Assembly: GCA_014360905.1 (NCBI GenBank)
Contig: JACIWW010000015.1
Coordinates: forward strand, 1-64,000
DNA: 64,000 nucleotides
Origin: Chloroflexota bacterium
Lineage (GTDB): Bacteria; Chloroflexota; Anaerolineae; UBA2200
Direction of reading: 5' to 3'
The position numbers were made by a program, and so were the translations under genes. Shown here in pieces: positions 55,553-62,370 of this stretch. The notes under the pieces were generated by a model. It saw nothing but the letters and a program-made list of their open reading frames with translations. It did not search any database and had not been told where the DNA came from. The first letter of the stretch is position 1. Each line of letters begins with the position of its first letter.

Positions 55553-56524
55553 TCACAAATACGCTGGAAGTTCATCGCGGATGCGTGCCGCGCGCATTGC
55601 CCTGTGCACCGCTTTGATCATCGCTGGTTTGACTCCAGCCTGCCTGGCAATATCCTCGTCGGACAGGCCCTGCTCTATCCCCCAGAGTACCGCATCCAGT
55701 TGCTCGTAAGTTAGACCGATGAGCGCTTCGTTCGGTAGTCCGGCGGCTAAATCGCCTGAGGATGCCTTGTTCACAATTTGCAGTGGCACGCCTAGGTAAC
55801 GTGCTAGTTCACGCACTTGCGTTTTGTACAGGTGGCGCAGCAAGGCAATATCGTTCGCTCCATCGCCATATTTATCGTAGAAACCTATGCTCCATTCCGA
55901 TTTATCGGTTGTGCCTACTACCAAGCAGTCGTTCAGAAAGGCATGGTAGTAGAGAAGGATCATGCGCAGGCGGACTTTAGAGATGGCAAAGGCATAGACA
56001 TGAGCAACAGGTCGCCAGAGCAGTTTGTGCGCAAGTCGCTCCCAGCAATTGGGATGGGAATGATAGAGCAGTGCCAGCCCCTGGCTGAACGCCGATGGCT
56101 GCCGCGTGAGACGAGCCAACCACCGTAAACCCAACTCGAGAACACGCCGATTGGCAGCCATTTCCTTTGAGATCAACCCGTAGACGCCCATTTGGGTCAG
56201 GATGGGCGTCAGGTCAATGCGGGTCGTATCCAGCCCTAGTGTTTGTGCAACGAGTTCGGCATCCCGTATGTTCTGTGGGTCTGAATCTCGTTCGGGCAAA
56301 ATGAGCGCCAGGACCCTTTTCTTGCCCAGAGCACGTACGCACAGATAAGCGCAGACCGTTGAATCGAGCCCTCCGCTCAGTCCCAGGACCACACCGCGTT
56401 TGTTCAGCCGCGTAACCTCCGCTTGTACGAATTGCTCCAATTCGCGCACCGTACTGACGGGATCAAAGCGCAATCCCTTGCGTATCTGGACTGCTGCGGA
56501 CACTGCGGATATCTCATCCTCCAT
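55553..56524 (-). CDS. nadE: NAD+ synthase
   Basis: The 323-residue protein has the PP-loop SGGLDSTVCAYL (about 50-61), a NadE hallmark, and the TTDKSEWSIGFYDKYGDGANDIALL segment (about 205-229). It is the short ammonia-dependent type without a glutaminase domain, with an inserted region (about 130-190). The ATG at 56524 overlaps the last base of the upstream stop (a GTG at 56527 is alternative), so it is coupled to the P-type ATPase gene. It makes NAD+ from deamido-NAD. Its place in a metal-efflux operon is unusual. Confidence 0.93.
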   Translation of the reverse strand: MEDEISAVSAAVQIRKGLRFDPVSTVRELEQFVQAEVTRLNKRGVVLGLSGGLDSTVCAYLCVRALGKKRVLALILPERDSDPQNIRDAELVAQTLGLDTTRIDLTPILTQMGVYGLISKEMAANRRVLELGLRWLARLTRQPSAFSQGLALLYHSHPNCWERLAHKLLWRPVAHVYAFAISKVRLRMILLYYHAFLNDCLVVGTTDKSEWSIGFYDKYGDGANDIALLRHLYKTQVRELARYLGVPLQIVNKASSGDLAAGLPNEALIGLTYEQLDAVLWGIEQGLSDEDIARQAGVKPAMIKAVHRAMRAARIRDELPAYL

Positions 56525-58869
56525 CACGAATCGCGCAACAGGCGCATGCCGTTGAAAATAACAATGAGGGACGTACCCATGTCAGCAAAAACAGCCATCC
56601 AGAGAGTGGCCAAGCCCGCTAGGGCCAATGCCAGAAAGAGTCCTTTGATGACTAGGGACAGGGCAATGTTTTGCTGGATATTCTGCACGGTGCGTCGTCC
56701 TAGACGGATCAGATAAGGGATGTGACACAGATCGTCGGACATGAGCACGATGTCCGCGGTCTCCAATGCAGCGTCGCTGCCAGCGGCGCCCATGGCAATG
56801 CCAACGGTCGCGCGCGCCATCGCCGGCGCGTCGTTCACTCCATCGCCCACCATGGCCACAGTGCCGTATTCCGCCAGCAGGCTTTCCACGGCGCGCACTT
56901 TGTCCTGCGGCAGCAGATTGGCTTGGACATGGCTGATGCCGGTTGTTTTGGCTATGGCCTGCGCGGTTCGTTCGTTGTCGCCACTGAGCAGTACGGTTTG
57001 TCCGATACCCAAGTCGTGCAATGCCTGCACCACACCTGGGCTGGCTTCCCGCACTCGGTCGGCTATGGCGATAATACCCAGTACATTCTCCTCGCTTCCC
57101 ACCAGGATTGTGGTCTTGCCTTCCGCTTCCAGTTGTGCGATGCGCTGGCAGATTTGCTCCACATGGGGCACGCGTTCGCAGAACAGAGGGTGGTTGCCTA
57201 CGTAGTGAATTCGCCCATTGATACGCGCCTGACCGCCCAAGCCGGTCAGTTCTTGATAATCCCTCACGGGCATTAGCTCGAGACCACGATGCTGGGCTTC
57301 TTTGTAGATGGCTTGCGCGACCGGGTGTTGGGAGTGTGCCTCGATGGAGGCAGCCAAGGCGAGGACCTCATCGGCTGTGTGAAGGTTGATAGACTCCACA
57401 TCCGTAACAGCGGCTTTTCCCTCAGTTAAGGTCCCTGTCTTGTCAAAGGCCACAGCCCGAATGTGCCCAATCGCTTCCAGGTACATGCCTCCCTTGATCA
57501 AAACGCCGTGACGGGCAGCATTGGAAATCGCTGAAACAATGGCCACGGGCGTGGAGATAACCAATGCGCAGGGGCAGGAGATGACCAGCAACACTAAGGC
57601 GCGGTAGAACCAGAGGGAAAACGGCGCACGGAAAGCCAGCGGGGGTACGATGGCGATAGCCGCGGCCAGTGTGATAACCGCCGGGGTATAGTACTTGGCA
57701 AAAGTGTCCACAAAACGTTGCGCTGGCGCCCGCTGCGTCTGTGCCTCTTGCACCATGCGCACAATACGGGCCAAGGTGTTGTCAGAAGCAAGCCTTGTTA
57801 CGCGTATCAACAGGGCTCCACTGCCGTTGATGCTTCCTGCATATGCCGGTGTGCCAGGTTGAGCATCTACGGGGGTGGATTCGCCAGTGATGGGCGCCTG
57901 GTTCAGCGTGGAAACTCCACTTTCGATGATGCCATCCATCGCTACTCTCTCGCCGGGCTTGACTTCGATGAGGTCGCCAACTTGCAGTTGCTCCACAGGA
58001 ACGCGGTCAGCGTGATCACCATGCACCCGGGTGGCTTCTTTTGGCGATAGTTCCACCAGCCTACGGATGGCTTGTCGCGCTCGATCCATGGTCAGCGTTT
58101 CCAATGCGTTGCCCAGGGAAAACAGGAACATGGCGGTGGCTCCTTCCGCCCATTCGCCAATGGCCATGGCACCGATGGCAGCGATGGACATTAACGCGTT
58201 CATGTCCAGGCTGCGTGTGGTGCGCAGTGCCGCCCAGCCACTCTTGGCGACATGATACCCACCGCAGAGTATGGCCAGAAAATAGGTTATCTTTACGGGC
58301 GATTCGGTCGCGCCCATGATACGCAACAGGAAGGCTACTGCCCAGAAGAAGCCTGAAGCAATCGTGAGCATCAGGCGCTGCTGTTGAACCAGGTAGGAGC
58401 GCCAACTGTGCTTTGGCGTCTTCATCTGTCCAACTGTGGGTGAACGCAATCGCGCCGCATACCCCAGATCTGCTGCCTGCCTGATGACCATCTCCGGCAA
58501 GTCCTGACCAGCAATGCCTCGCACGCGCATCTGCGCTGTGGCAAAATTCACCTGTGCCTCGATCACATGGGGCAAAGCGGCGACAGCCCGTTCAAGTTTG
58601 GCAGCGCAGTCGGCGCAGTCCAACTCATCAAGTTCAAAGACGAGTTCGTCGCCCAAAGCGACGTCGTAGCCTAGTTCTTTGATCCTCGCGATGATCTGCG
58701 CTGGATTTGTTTGCTGCGTATTGAACTGTACTGCCAGGCTGGCTGCGGCAAAGTTCAGTTCCGCTGCTTGCACACCCTCCAGTTGGGCTACCCCGTCTTC
58801 CAGAGTGCGTGCACAGTCTATGCAGTCCAGCCCGGTGATGGGTAAAGTGATTTGTTGCATGGTTGTCAT
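56524..58869 (-). CDS. zntA: Heavy-metal P-type ATPase (Zn/Cd/Pb type)
   Basis: The 781-residue P1B-ATPase has two N-terminal HMA domains with GLDCIDCA and ELDCADCA metal sites (about 13-20, 84-91), then about 8 membrane segments with SCPCALV (CPC, about 435), the phosphorylation loop DKTGTLTEG (about 475), HSQHPVAQAI (HP motif), and GDGVNDAPAM (about 680). The D-C-x-x-C sites and CPC suggest Zn2+/Cd2+/Pb2+ export. Second gene after an ArsR-type repressor with a fitting operator. Confidence 0.92.
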   Translation of the reverse strand: MTTMQQITLPITGLDCIDCARTLEDGVAQLEGVQAAELNFAAASLAVQFNTQQTNPAQIIARIKELGYDVALGDELVFELDELDCADCAAKLERAVAALPHVIEAQVNFATAQMRVRGIAGQDLPEMVIRQAADLGYAARLRSPTVGQMKTPKHSWRSYLVQQQRLMLTIASGFFWAVAFLLRIMGATESPVKITYFLAILCGGYHVAKSGWAALRTTRSLDMNALMSIAAIGAMAIGEWAEGATAMFLFSLGNALETLTMDRARQAIRRLVELSPKEATRVHGDHADRVPVEQLQVGDLIEVKPGERVAMDGIIESGVSTLNQAPITGESTPVDAQPGTPAYAGSINGSGALLIRVTRLASDNTLARIVRMVQEAQTQRAPAQRFVDTFAKYYTPAVITLAAAIAIVPPLAFRAPFSLWFYRALVLLVISCPCALVISTPVAIVSAISNAARHGVLIKGGMYLEAIGHIRAVAFDKTGTLTEGKAAVTDVESINLHTADEVLALAASIEAHSQHPVAQAIYKEAQHRGLELMPVRDYQELTGLGGQARINGRIHYVGNHPLFCERVPHVEQICQRIAQLEAEGKTTILVGSEENVLGIIAIADRVREASPGVVQALHDLGIGQTVLLSGDNERTAQAIAKTTGISHVQANLLPQDKVRAVESLLAEYGTVAMVGDGVNDAPAMARATVGIAMGAAGSDAALETADIVLMSDDLCHIPYLIRLGRRTVQNIQQNIALSLVIKGLFLALALAGLATLWMAVFADMGTSLIVIFNGMRLLRDS

Positions 58870-58927
58870 TTGTTCGCCTCATACTCAGTGTGTTGCCGTC
58901 TTCCAACAGTCAGTTCACTGAACGCCA

Positions 58928-59287
58928 CTAACCATGCCGCACATGGTCCAATCCCTGTTGGAAGAGGGTCGAGATATGTTCGTCGTCCAGGGTATAGTAG
59001 GCCAACTGCCCAGCCTTGCGCCGCTTGACCAGCCGCAGTTGGCGCAGGATGCGCAGTTGGTGCGAGATCGCTGACTGACTTATGCCTAGCGTAGCGGCTA
59101 GGTCGTAGACGCATAGCTCGCCTGTGGCGAGGGCGGAGATAATGCGCACGCGGGTAGGGTCGCTGAGGGTTTGGAAAAAGTTGGCCAGTTGGGCAGCGGT
59201 CCCCTCATCCACCAGTTGTGCCTGCGCCCGACGAACCCCTTCTGCATCGGTGTATTCGATTTCGCAACGGTCTATTTCTGACTCCAT
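58928..59287 (-). CDS. ArsR/SmtB-type metal-sensing repressor
   Basis: The 119-residue protein is a winged helix: LSDPTRVRIISALATGELCVYDLAATLGISQSAISHQL (about 41-78; described by position), and a C-terminal helix DDEHISTLFQQGLDHVRHG (about 100-118) whose D, H and H residues fit the alpha-5 metal site of SmtB/CzrA-type zinc sensors. A Cys in ELCVYD may add an alpha-3 site as in CadC. It represses until metal binds. It lies upstream of the zntA gene, with a SmtB-type operator in front. Confidence 0.9.
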   Translation of the reverse strand: MESEIDRCEIEYTDAEGVRRAQAQLVDEGTAAQLANFFQTLSDPTRVRIISALATGELCVYDLAATLGISQSAISHQLRILRQLRLVKRRKAGQLAYYTLDDEHISTLFQQGLDHVRHG

Positions 59288-60539: not shown

Positions 60540-60568
60540 TTGACGGGGCATGGGAAAGGTGGTAGAAT
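60540..60568 (+). promoter_or_regulatory. Promoter of the YIP1 gene
   Basis: TTGACG (60540-60545) and TAGAAT (60563-60568) are spaced by 17 bases, about 23 bases before the predicted leader end at 60598. Confidence 0.7.
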
Positions 60569-60597
60569 CGGTTAAACAACTTCAAAGGGGGGCGAGA

Positions 60598-61143
60598 ATG
60601 GTCGAGCGCATTATCCGTATCATCAGGTTGGATTTTCCCGTGTTCAAGGAGATCGAATCCGATCCAAACGCGACTACCGAAGCAGCGATTGTGGTTGCCG
60701 TGTCTTCGGTGCTGTCCGCTATTGGCTCCGCAGTTGGCTCCCATCGACCAGTGCTGGTCTTTTTCTCAGGGGTGATCGGTGGCATTCTAGGCTGGATCGT
60801 GTGGTCTTGTGTCTCCCATTTCATCGGGCAGGCCATGTTCAAGAGCAAGGGCACAGTGGAGAACATGCTGCGCGTGATTGGTTATGCTAACGCGCCGCGG
60901 TTGCTGGGTATCTTTGGCTTCATTCCATGCCTGAGAGCGCTGGCGTCACTGATTGGTGCCATTCTGGCTCTCATTGCCGGCATCATGGCCATCCGTGAAG
61001 GGTTGGATTTGGAGCTGGGGCAGGCCATCATCGTAGCGGTCGTGGGTTGGGTTGCGTTGTTCATTATCTCTATCATCATCGGCGCCATCTTTGGCGTTGG
61101 GGCAGCAGGGGTAGGGCTTGTGAGCGGGGCAGTTACCCGCTAA
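60598..61143 (+). CDS. YIP1-family membrane protein
   Basis: The ATG at 60598 follows GGGGGGCG; an upstream ATG at 60550 lies within the promoter. The 181-residue protein has about five membrane segments and an amphipathic start (RIIRIIRLDFPVFKEIE), typical of YIP1-domain proteins of unknown function. The segment with YANAPRLLGIFGFIPCL (about 97-113) is conserved in the family. It is 23 bases upstream of the putative selenoprotein and may share its transcript. Confidence 0.8.
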   Translation: MVERIIRIIRLDFPVFKEIESDPNATTEAAIVVAVSSVLSAIGSAVGSHRPVLVFFSGVIGGILGWIVWSCVSHFIGQAMFKSKGTVENMLRVIGYANAPRLLGIFGFIPCLRALASLIGAILALIAGIMAIREGLDLELGQAIIVAVVGWVALFIISIIIGAIFGVGAAGVGLVSGAVTR

Positions 61144-61166: not shown

Positions 61167-61661
61167 ATGGAGTTATCGTCTAGGCCCACCATCGAAACCG
61201 AACTAGCCATTCGCGCGGGCGATTTAATGCGCCAAGGCTATCACTGAGCTGAGGCGGTTATGCTCGCCGTGGGCGGGTATCTGCTGGGAGAAATTCCCCC
61301 TCCTGTAGTCAAGATGGCCAGCACACTCGCTGGTGGTCTGGGTGGCACGCGTCAGGAATTGTGTGGTGCATTGAACGCGGGGGTGATGATCATTGGGGCG
61401 CTGTACGGGCGTACCCGTCCGGGAGAGGATGAGGCGGTAGCGCGTGAGTTGGCAGCGCGCTTCCGCGAGCGTTTCCTGACAACATTTGGTACGACCCAAT
61501 GCGCTCCGATACGTGCGCGGTTTGAGACGACTGGCAAATCTGGCTTCTGTGCACCAGTAGCCGAGCAGGCGGTGCTGCTTTTATGTACCGTGCTATCCGA
61601 GCAAGGCATCGTACTTTCATCCCCTGACACCTTCCCCAGCATCGATTGGGCGTGCGAATAA
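61167..61661 (+). CDS. C_GCAxxG_C_C family redox protein, probable selenoprotein (in-frame TGA)
   Basis: The 164-codon frame from ATG 61167 runs through an in-frame TGA at 61245-61247 (codon 27) and ends at a TAA. Upstream of the TGA the text reads AIRAGDLMRQGYH, and downstream AEAVMLAVGGYL, which is the family start 'GY-x-C-A-E-A-V' with the TGA exactly where the first conserved Cys belongs. The remaining conserved Cys are present: LCGALNAG (CGAxxG, about 73), TTQCAPI and SGFCAPV. A hairpin starting 14 bases after the TGA fits a SECIS. Family members are putative redox proteins. A shorter start at 61260 would avoid the TGA but lose the first Cys. Weak ribosome site before 61167. Confidence 0.65.
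61262..61278 (+). promoter_or_regulatory. SECIS-like hairpin
   Basis: GCTCGCC (61262-61268) pairs with GGCGGGT (61272-61278) with two G-U pairs, leaving a GTG loop whose first G is 22 nt after the TGA. Bacterial SECIS elements have such a stem and a G-U at the start of the loop at about this distance. Confidence 0.5.
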
Positions 61662-61668
61662 GGGTAGG

Positions 61669-62370
61669 TCAGTGGGCGTCCCTAACGCCTTGCTTTCTTC
61701 TAATAATGATTTGGCGCAACAGACGCCATGCCGTCAGCGGAGCAATGGAGGCCACCGTCAACGCGGGAACAAGGTACGGGGTCTTGGTTGTGTAGTGTAG
61801 CCGGGCACGCTGCAGGTTCGCCAGGAATTCTTGCGGCGTCTGAAAGTTGTCCATCTCTGTCCAGGCACGCCCAATTTCACAGGCAAAATGCCCATCGGAG
61901 CCGGCAGCTACAGGCAATCCATATCGTGCCGCCAACTCGCGAGCGCGTTGGTCATCGGCAGCGAAAGGGGCTCGTGCGTTATAGCCTTCGAGCACATCAA
62001 TCTGCTCGATGATCTCGTAGAGCTTGCGCTCCTCGATTTTCCCTGGCACGCCCCGTGCCAAGGGATGGGGGATAAAAACCAGTCCCTTTTGCTCACGGAT
62101 GCGCGCGATGGTTTCCTCTGCACTGAGATGGGGCGGGATGTGTTCCTCAATGAACAAGGCGGCGATGCCTCCGTGCATCGTGCCGATCTCTTCTCCCACA
62201 ATAACCTTGAATGGCGCCCATTCTCTTAGGCGAAGAGCGCCTTCGATTTCGTCATGGTCGAGGATGGCTACGCCATCCAGCCCTTTGCGTCGTACAACGG
62301 CAGATAGTTTCTCCAGTGAGAGGGCGCAGTCATAAGAGTAGCAGGTGTGGACGTGGAGGTCGAGGCGCAT
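61669..62370 (-). CDS. PHP-domain phosphoesterase
   Basis: The 233-residue protein has the PHP metal motifs HVHTCYSYDCALS (about 6-18), AILDHDEIEGA (about 35-45), FIPHPLARG (about 98-106) and GSDGHFACEIG (about 158-168). Such proteins hydrolyse phosphate esters, often with three metal ions. Substrate unknown. It follows the GT4 gene by 19 bases on the same strand. Confidence 0.9.
   Translation of the reverse strand: MRLDLHVHTCYSYDCALSLEKLSAVVRRKGLDGVAILDHDEIEGALRLREWAPFKVIVGEEIGTMHGGIAALFIEEHIPPHLSAEETIARIREQKGLVFIPHPLARGVPGKIEERKLYEIIEQIDVLEGYNARAPFAADDQRARELAARYGLPVAAGSDGHFACEIGRAWTEMDNFQTPQEFLANLQRARLHYTTKTPYLVPALTVASIAPLTAWRLLRQIIIRRKQGVRDAH

Follow-up and report, generated by a model that had tools for sequence, protein, structure and literature searches.

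The gene at 61167-61661 of the window, by which we mean the whole stretch of 64,000 nucleotides analysed here, very probably encodes a selenoprotein, a small helical protein of redox or electron transfer whose selenocysteine at position 27 (Sec27) would be inserted under the direction of a SECIS hairpin (Table 1). Insertion of Sec at the UGA of codon 27 itself seems almost certain to us, judging from the selenium genes of the genome, the conservation of the UGA and the covarying hairpin. The frame reads MELSSRPTIETELAIRAGDLMRQGYH-U-AEAVMLAVGG... and closes in TAA. Its one internal stop is the TGA of codon 27 (RQGYH-U-AEAVMLAV), which coincides with the first invariant Cys column of PF09719, a family with four such columns. 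The initial annotation had rightly placed an in-frame TGA at the site of the first conserved Cys, and it had described the other conserved Cys as intact; Cys66, Cys112 and Cys128 are all there.

In the mechanism that we propose, SelB would bring Sec-tRNA-Sec to the ribosome at this UGA, the hairpin, lying in the coding region just 3' of the codon, would direct the insertion, and Sec would stand where the first of four conserved Cys is otherwise found. The product would be an all-helical domain with its four Cys/Sec positions at helix N termini, and its role would most likely be in redox reactions or electron transfer, and Sec27 would serve as its reactive or tuning residue.

Table 1. Features of the selenoprotein gene and its immediate neighbours, with positions in the window
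Feature	Position	Strand	Basis
C_GCAxxG_C_C (PF09719) gene, predicted selenoprotein of 164 aa with Sec27	61167..61661	+	profile matches, coding signal
UGA codon, predicted to be read as selenocysteine (Sec27)	61245..61247	+	column of first invariant Cys, recurrence in homologues
Putative bacterial SECIS hairpin (arms 61260-61268 and 61272-61280, loop GUG 61269-61271)	61260..61280	+	folding, covariation, published constraints
Conserved Cys66 (CGALxxG motif; here CGALNAG)	61362..61364	+	invariant in 48 homologues and split-Soret cytochromes c
Conserved Cys112	61500..61502	+	invariant in 48 homologues and split-Soret cytochromes c
Conserved Cys128	61548..61550	+	invariant in 48 homologues and split-Soret cytochromes c
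Yip1-domain membrane protein, upstream neighbour (23 nt gap)	60550..61143	+	PF04893, E 1.9e-12
PHP-domain protein, downstream neighbour on the opposite strand	61669..62370	-	PF02811/PF13263

The PF09719 domain and split-Soret cytochrome c

The gene product matched PF09719 (E 2.5e-19, 69.9 bits against a cut-off of 27) and TIGR01909, the 'C-GCAxxG-C-C family (seleno)protein' (58.8 against 47.4), and has in common with both the domain, the four Cys positions and the CGAxxG motif. PF09719 has been listed among predicted selenoproteins, in forms 1 and 2 (PMC9312934, PMC13188914). Because TIGR01909 already bears '(seleno)protein' in its name and PF09719 stands in these two reviews, the gene adds a member to a selenoprotein family that was already known, and its novelty is modest. 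In a literature search limited to open papers, Chloroflexota were mentioned in neither of the two. What is new here is that the PF09719 family is rich in Sec across Anaerolineae and that it includes split-Soret cytochrome c, in which the four Cys are conserved. The N-terminal part of the HUGP/GUXX-star fusion selenoprotein (NF045501) matched residues 15-113 (E 3.5e-9), but the cut-off of that family was missed by far (36.5 against 325) and its fused second domain is absent from our gene product. With the DVU_1555 family C-GCAxxG-C-C protein (NF045669) the domain is shared over the whole length (E 7.5e-14), although this cut-off was missed too (51.6 against 103), and the Desulfovibrio-type relatives that we read have Cys.

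When 48 homologues were aligned and Sec was counted as Cys, the invariant columns were position 27, Gly57, Cys66, Gly67, Cys112 and Cys128, and the homologues without TGA at the Sec27 column carried TGT or TGC instead. Sec was confined to the first of the four Cys positions in all sequences read in this analysis. This suggests that the first position is special, whether the four belong to a metal site or to a thiol-selenol site.

The AlphaFold2 model is all-helical (pLDDT 92.5, pTM 0.88), and residues 27, 66, 112 and 128 are each placed at the N terminus of a helix or immediately before it. A Foldseek search of the model against the PDB gave no match at E <= 0.001, and phmmer with the single protein against the PDB gave nothing credible. 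In the VIA structural comparison, 1h21, a split-Soret cytochrome c, stood out with a Z of 13.2 (133 residues, 2.6 A), the next match having 6.0; a Z of about 13 can be reached by chance for helical models, and the sequence matches of 1h21 provide independent support. Structural matches to MmgE/PrpD (Z 5-6) were set aside as common helical arrangements. The best PDB match of the family profile was 1h21 (E 0.02). The PF09719 cut-off is exceeded by a piece of 1h21, and P0002 (L144) and P0003 (L145), both full-length split-Soret cytochromes, match PF09719 with 50.5 and 48.7 bits. All four Cys align between the PF09719 protein and the split-Soret cytochromes c, the first aligned Cys of the latter sitting in a CC pair, either member of which may be the counterpart.

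Split-Soret cytochrome c is familiar chiefly for its haem, yet it includes a PF09719 domain in which none of the four Cys is missing. It (PDB 1h21; NF047622) has the fold over those 133 residues and the four Cys in common with our gene product, at about 15% identity, but it alone possesses a C-terminal haem-binding part and an N-terminal leader, and it has Cys rather than Sec. Because the haem-binding motif CxxCH was not found in the 164-aa protein, the gene product is no cytochrome and only the domain is shared.

A redox function of some kind is quite probable for this protein. We tentatively predict a metal or Fe-S site on the four Cys/Sec positions, and because split-Soret cytochrome c shares the domain and the four Cys, we regard such a site as about as likely as selenenylsulfide or disulfide exchange. 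The selenoprotein could just as well be a plain thiol-selenol oxidoreductase, which would form a selenenylsulfide with another Cys and hold no metal. Selenoproteins of known function are mostly redox proteins and predicted ones mostly resemble thiol-based oxidoreductases (PMC9312934), which agrees with this plain chemistry, as do the Pfam name 'putative redox-active' for PF09719 and the restriction of Sec to the first of four positions, which suits a single attacking residue. It is countered by split-Soret cytochrome c, as the one solved relative (1h21) has 'a novel iron centre' in its title and lacks none of the four Cys. In the literature mentioning split-Soret cytochrome c, the iron centre appeared only through the title of a reference. 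Abreu et al. in 2003 reportedly detected an iron-sulfur centre by EPR, possibly [2Fe-2S], and tentatively assigned it to Cys of split-Soret cytochrome c. By homology to 1h21 and in the light of that work, the four positions may be linked to an Fe-S centre, and Sec27 may lie at or adjoin the iron-sulfur site. It is unlikely that Sec27 is itself a ligand of such a centre, with Cys and Sec ligands of a split-Soret-related cluster swapped across Anaerolineae in at least six exchanges.

The coding signal around the UGA

Compared with the orthologue in a genome of the same genus (G002), the 20 codons 5' of the TGA differ 2, 4 and 10 times at codon positions 1, 2 and 3, and the 80 codons 3' of it 9, 7 and 37 times; upstream of ATG 61167 the third-position bias against this orthologue vanishes (9, 10, 11). 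Because the bias is found on both sides of the TGA and is gone before the ATG, the coding signal runs through the TGA. We infer that ATG 61167 is the start, as the first start codon after an in-frame TGA; a clear ribosome-binding site was not found for it. With the standard code, mechanical ORF calling gives an ORF of 133 aa, and codon 27 could be an ordinary stop followed by this shorter protein, translated from ATG 61260 and without Sec. However, the segment 5' of the TGA not only evolves as coding sequence but is conserved among members with Sec and members with Cys alike, no residue other than these two occurs in the TGA column, and initiation at ATG 61260 would fall inside an arm of the SECIS hairpin and lose an invariant residue, all of which makes the shorter protein very improbable.

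The Yip1 and PHP neighbours are both kept beside the gene in G002 and in two further genomes of the order, G004 and G005. At 56524-59287 lies a P-type metal ATPase, whose N terminus has two DCxxC motifs, adjoining an ArsR-type regulator; in G002, and in G005 at least in part, the two are retained beside the same neighbours.

The hairpin and the selenium machinery

The hairpin begins 12 nt past the UGA and forms 9 of 9 pairs, with an MFE of -11.9 kcal/mol and a z of -2.5 against synonymous recoding, and it can be extended to 14 bp with a 2-nt bulge. The published bSECIS model describes a loop of 3-9 nt with G in the first two positions, a stem of 4-16 bp, a UGA-to-loop distance of 16-37 nt and an MFE <= -7.5 (PMC13188914). 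The hairpin satisfies these constraints with its loop GUG (G first), its 9 bp, a loop that begins 21 nt past the UGA and its MFE of -11.9, and the bacterial SECIS placement claimed in the initial annotation is thereby borne out. A hairpin of 7 bp at 22 nt downstream had been described there; its existence and the GU at the start of its loop held, and its size and spacing, which were close, are corrected here to 9 bp and 21 nt.

For the stability test, each sequence was recoded synonymously 300 times. The 42 Sec members had a mean z of -1.96 and formed 7.8 of the 9 pairs where 6.1 were expected, whereas the 8 Cys members had a mean z of +0.35 and formed 4.6 pairs where 4.4 were expected; by this measure, a SECIS-type hairpin appears to be selected only in the TGA members. 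Among 35 distinct Sec sequences, 92.1% of the hairpin cells pair and four pairs are changed on both sides, and the covariation score was higher than in 500 of 500 column shuffles and all slid versions; the count left out six divergent Sec members (L059-L063, L098), most of which have another hairpin register. At one pair, C-G has given way to A-U in five distinct sequences and to G-C in another. Because this change also alters amino acids (e.g. L..E to I..D), codon choice alone is an insufficient explanation for it. A looser bSECIS scan was not specific, being passed by 47 of 49 Sec and 11 of 25 Cys members, and a tree-corrected paired bSECIS test was not significant, with too few pairs. Compared with the looser scan, the register-specific hairpin test is the informative one.

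The source genome, an assembly of 2.83 Mb in 49 contigs that is 96% complete, contains a tRNA-Sec with anticodon tca, selB (347.6 bits), selA (583.8 bits) and selD (377 bits), so the four genes for which a search had initially been advised are all present. The selD gene has its own in-frame TGA near the N terminus (MTTAAG-U-AAKRGP), which indicates at least two likely selenoproteins in this genome. In this gene (L018, G000:C38:244-1179, minus strand) the TGA apparently stands at the place of the SelD catalytic Cys/Sec (AAG-U-AAK). Sec use appears to be the rule in Anaerolineae, selB being found in 314 of 396 genomes of a class-wide sample, and because selB is so common in the class its presence alone adds little support. 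Some bacteria read UGA as Trp or Gly, and a recoded or suppressor tRNA might translate codon 27 as Trp, Gly or Cys instead of Sec. This is extremely improbable in a genome with tRNA-Sec, selA, selB and selD, for a frame whose only internal TGA sits at a Cys column, and with a SECIS-type hairpin that appears selected in TGA members only.

Recurrence of the UGA and Sec/Cys exchange

Across 40 genomes of the class Anaerolineae (Chloroflexota), 42 homologues have TGA at the codon-27 column. These loci came from hits with stops and from hits aligned to the profile only from the residue after the expected Cys onwards; that a match starting at profile position 4 conceals a TGA at position 3 had been predicted, and it proved true for all 16 loci fetched. 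In 37 of the 40 Sec genomes selB was found at E <= 1e-60, and selA was present in the remaining three (G250, G030, G089). A pseudogene or a sequencing error deserves practically no credence: TGA is one base away from TGT and TGC, but its recurrence at the matching codon in 40 genomes, in independent assemblies, refutes both and excludes the misread Cys codon considered in the initial annotation, and the frame is otherwise undisrupted and the hairpin covaries. The proposal that Sec replaces Cys is supported by the sel genes, the Cys homologues, the bSECIS hairpin and the recurrent TGA.

The named relatives are Chloroflexota, mostly Anaerolineae. Sec members were also found in one Candidatus Zipacnadia MAG and two Clostridiales, and Cys members belong to Desulfovibrio relatives, KSB1, Zixiibacteriota and Pelolinea. 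The Sec member of Candidatus Zipacnadia (Armatimonadota; L107:4001-4402) is nested among Chloroflexota sequences, by either gene transfer or a misbinned contig. G002 also has a second, divergent Sec paralogue (L029:1375-1860; GFH-U-SETVMRAV) with a hairpin of its own.

Within the order, the place of codon 27 is occupied by TGA in same-genus G002 and in same-family G003 and G006, and by Cys in G004 and G005. The gene order Yip1, selenoprotein gene, PHP and glycosyltransferase is common to G002 (Sec) and to G004 and G005 (Cys), and the alignment with Cys homologues that had been suggested at the outset therefore finds Cys at this site also in orthologues in conserved synteny. On a tree built with the codon-27 site masked, 8 Sec/Cys changes are needed and at least 6 are forced by well supported branches, so that there were at least 6 and probably 8. 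The pair that includes the window's gene is sister to the Cys pair of G004 and G005, inside an otherwise-Sec group, and parsimony, on a tree whose root is not fixed, suggests that Cys replaced Sec in G004 and G005.

Annotation under the standard code shortens the protein to the ORF from ATG 61260 and drops its key residue, and similar misannotation is expected in dozens of Anaerolineae genomes. For the uncharacterised PF09719 family, the relation to split-Soret cytochrome c offers a testable biochemical hypothesis, namely a metal centre at the four Cys. The frequent exchange of Sec and Cys at a fixed site, in a conserved gene order, makes this family a good natural experiment on selenium use.
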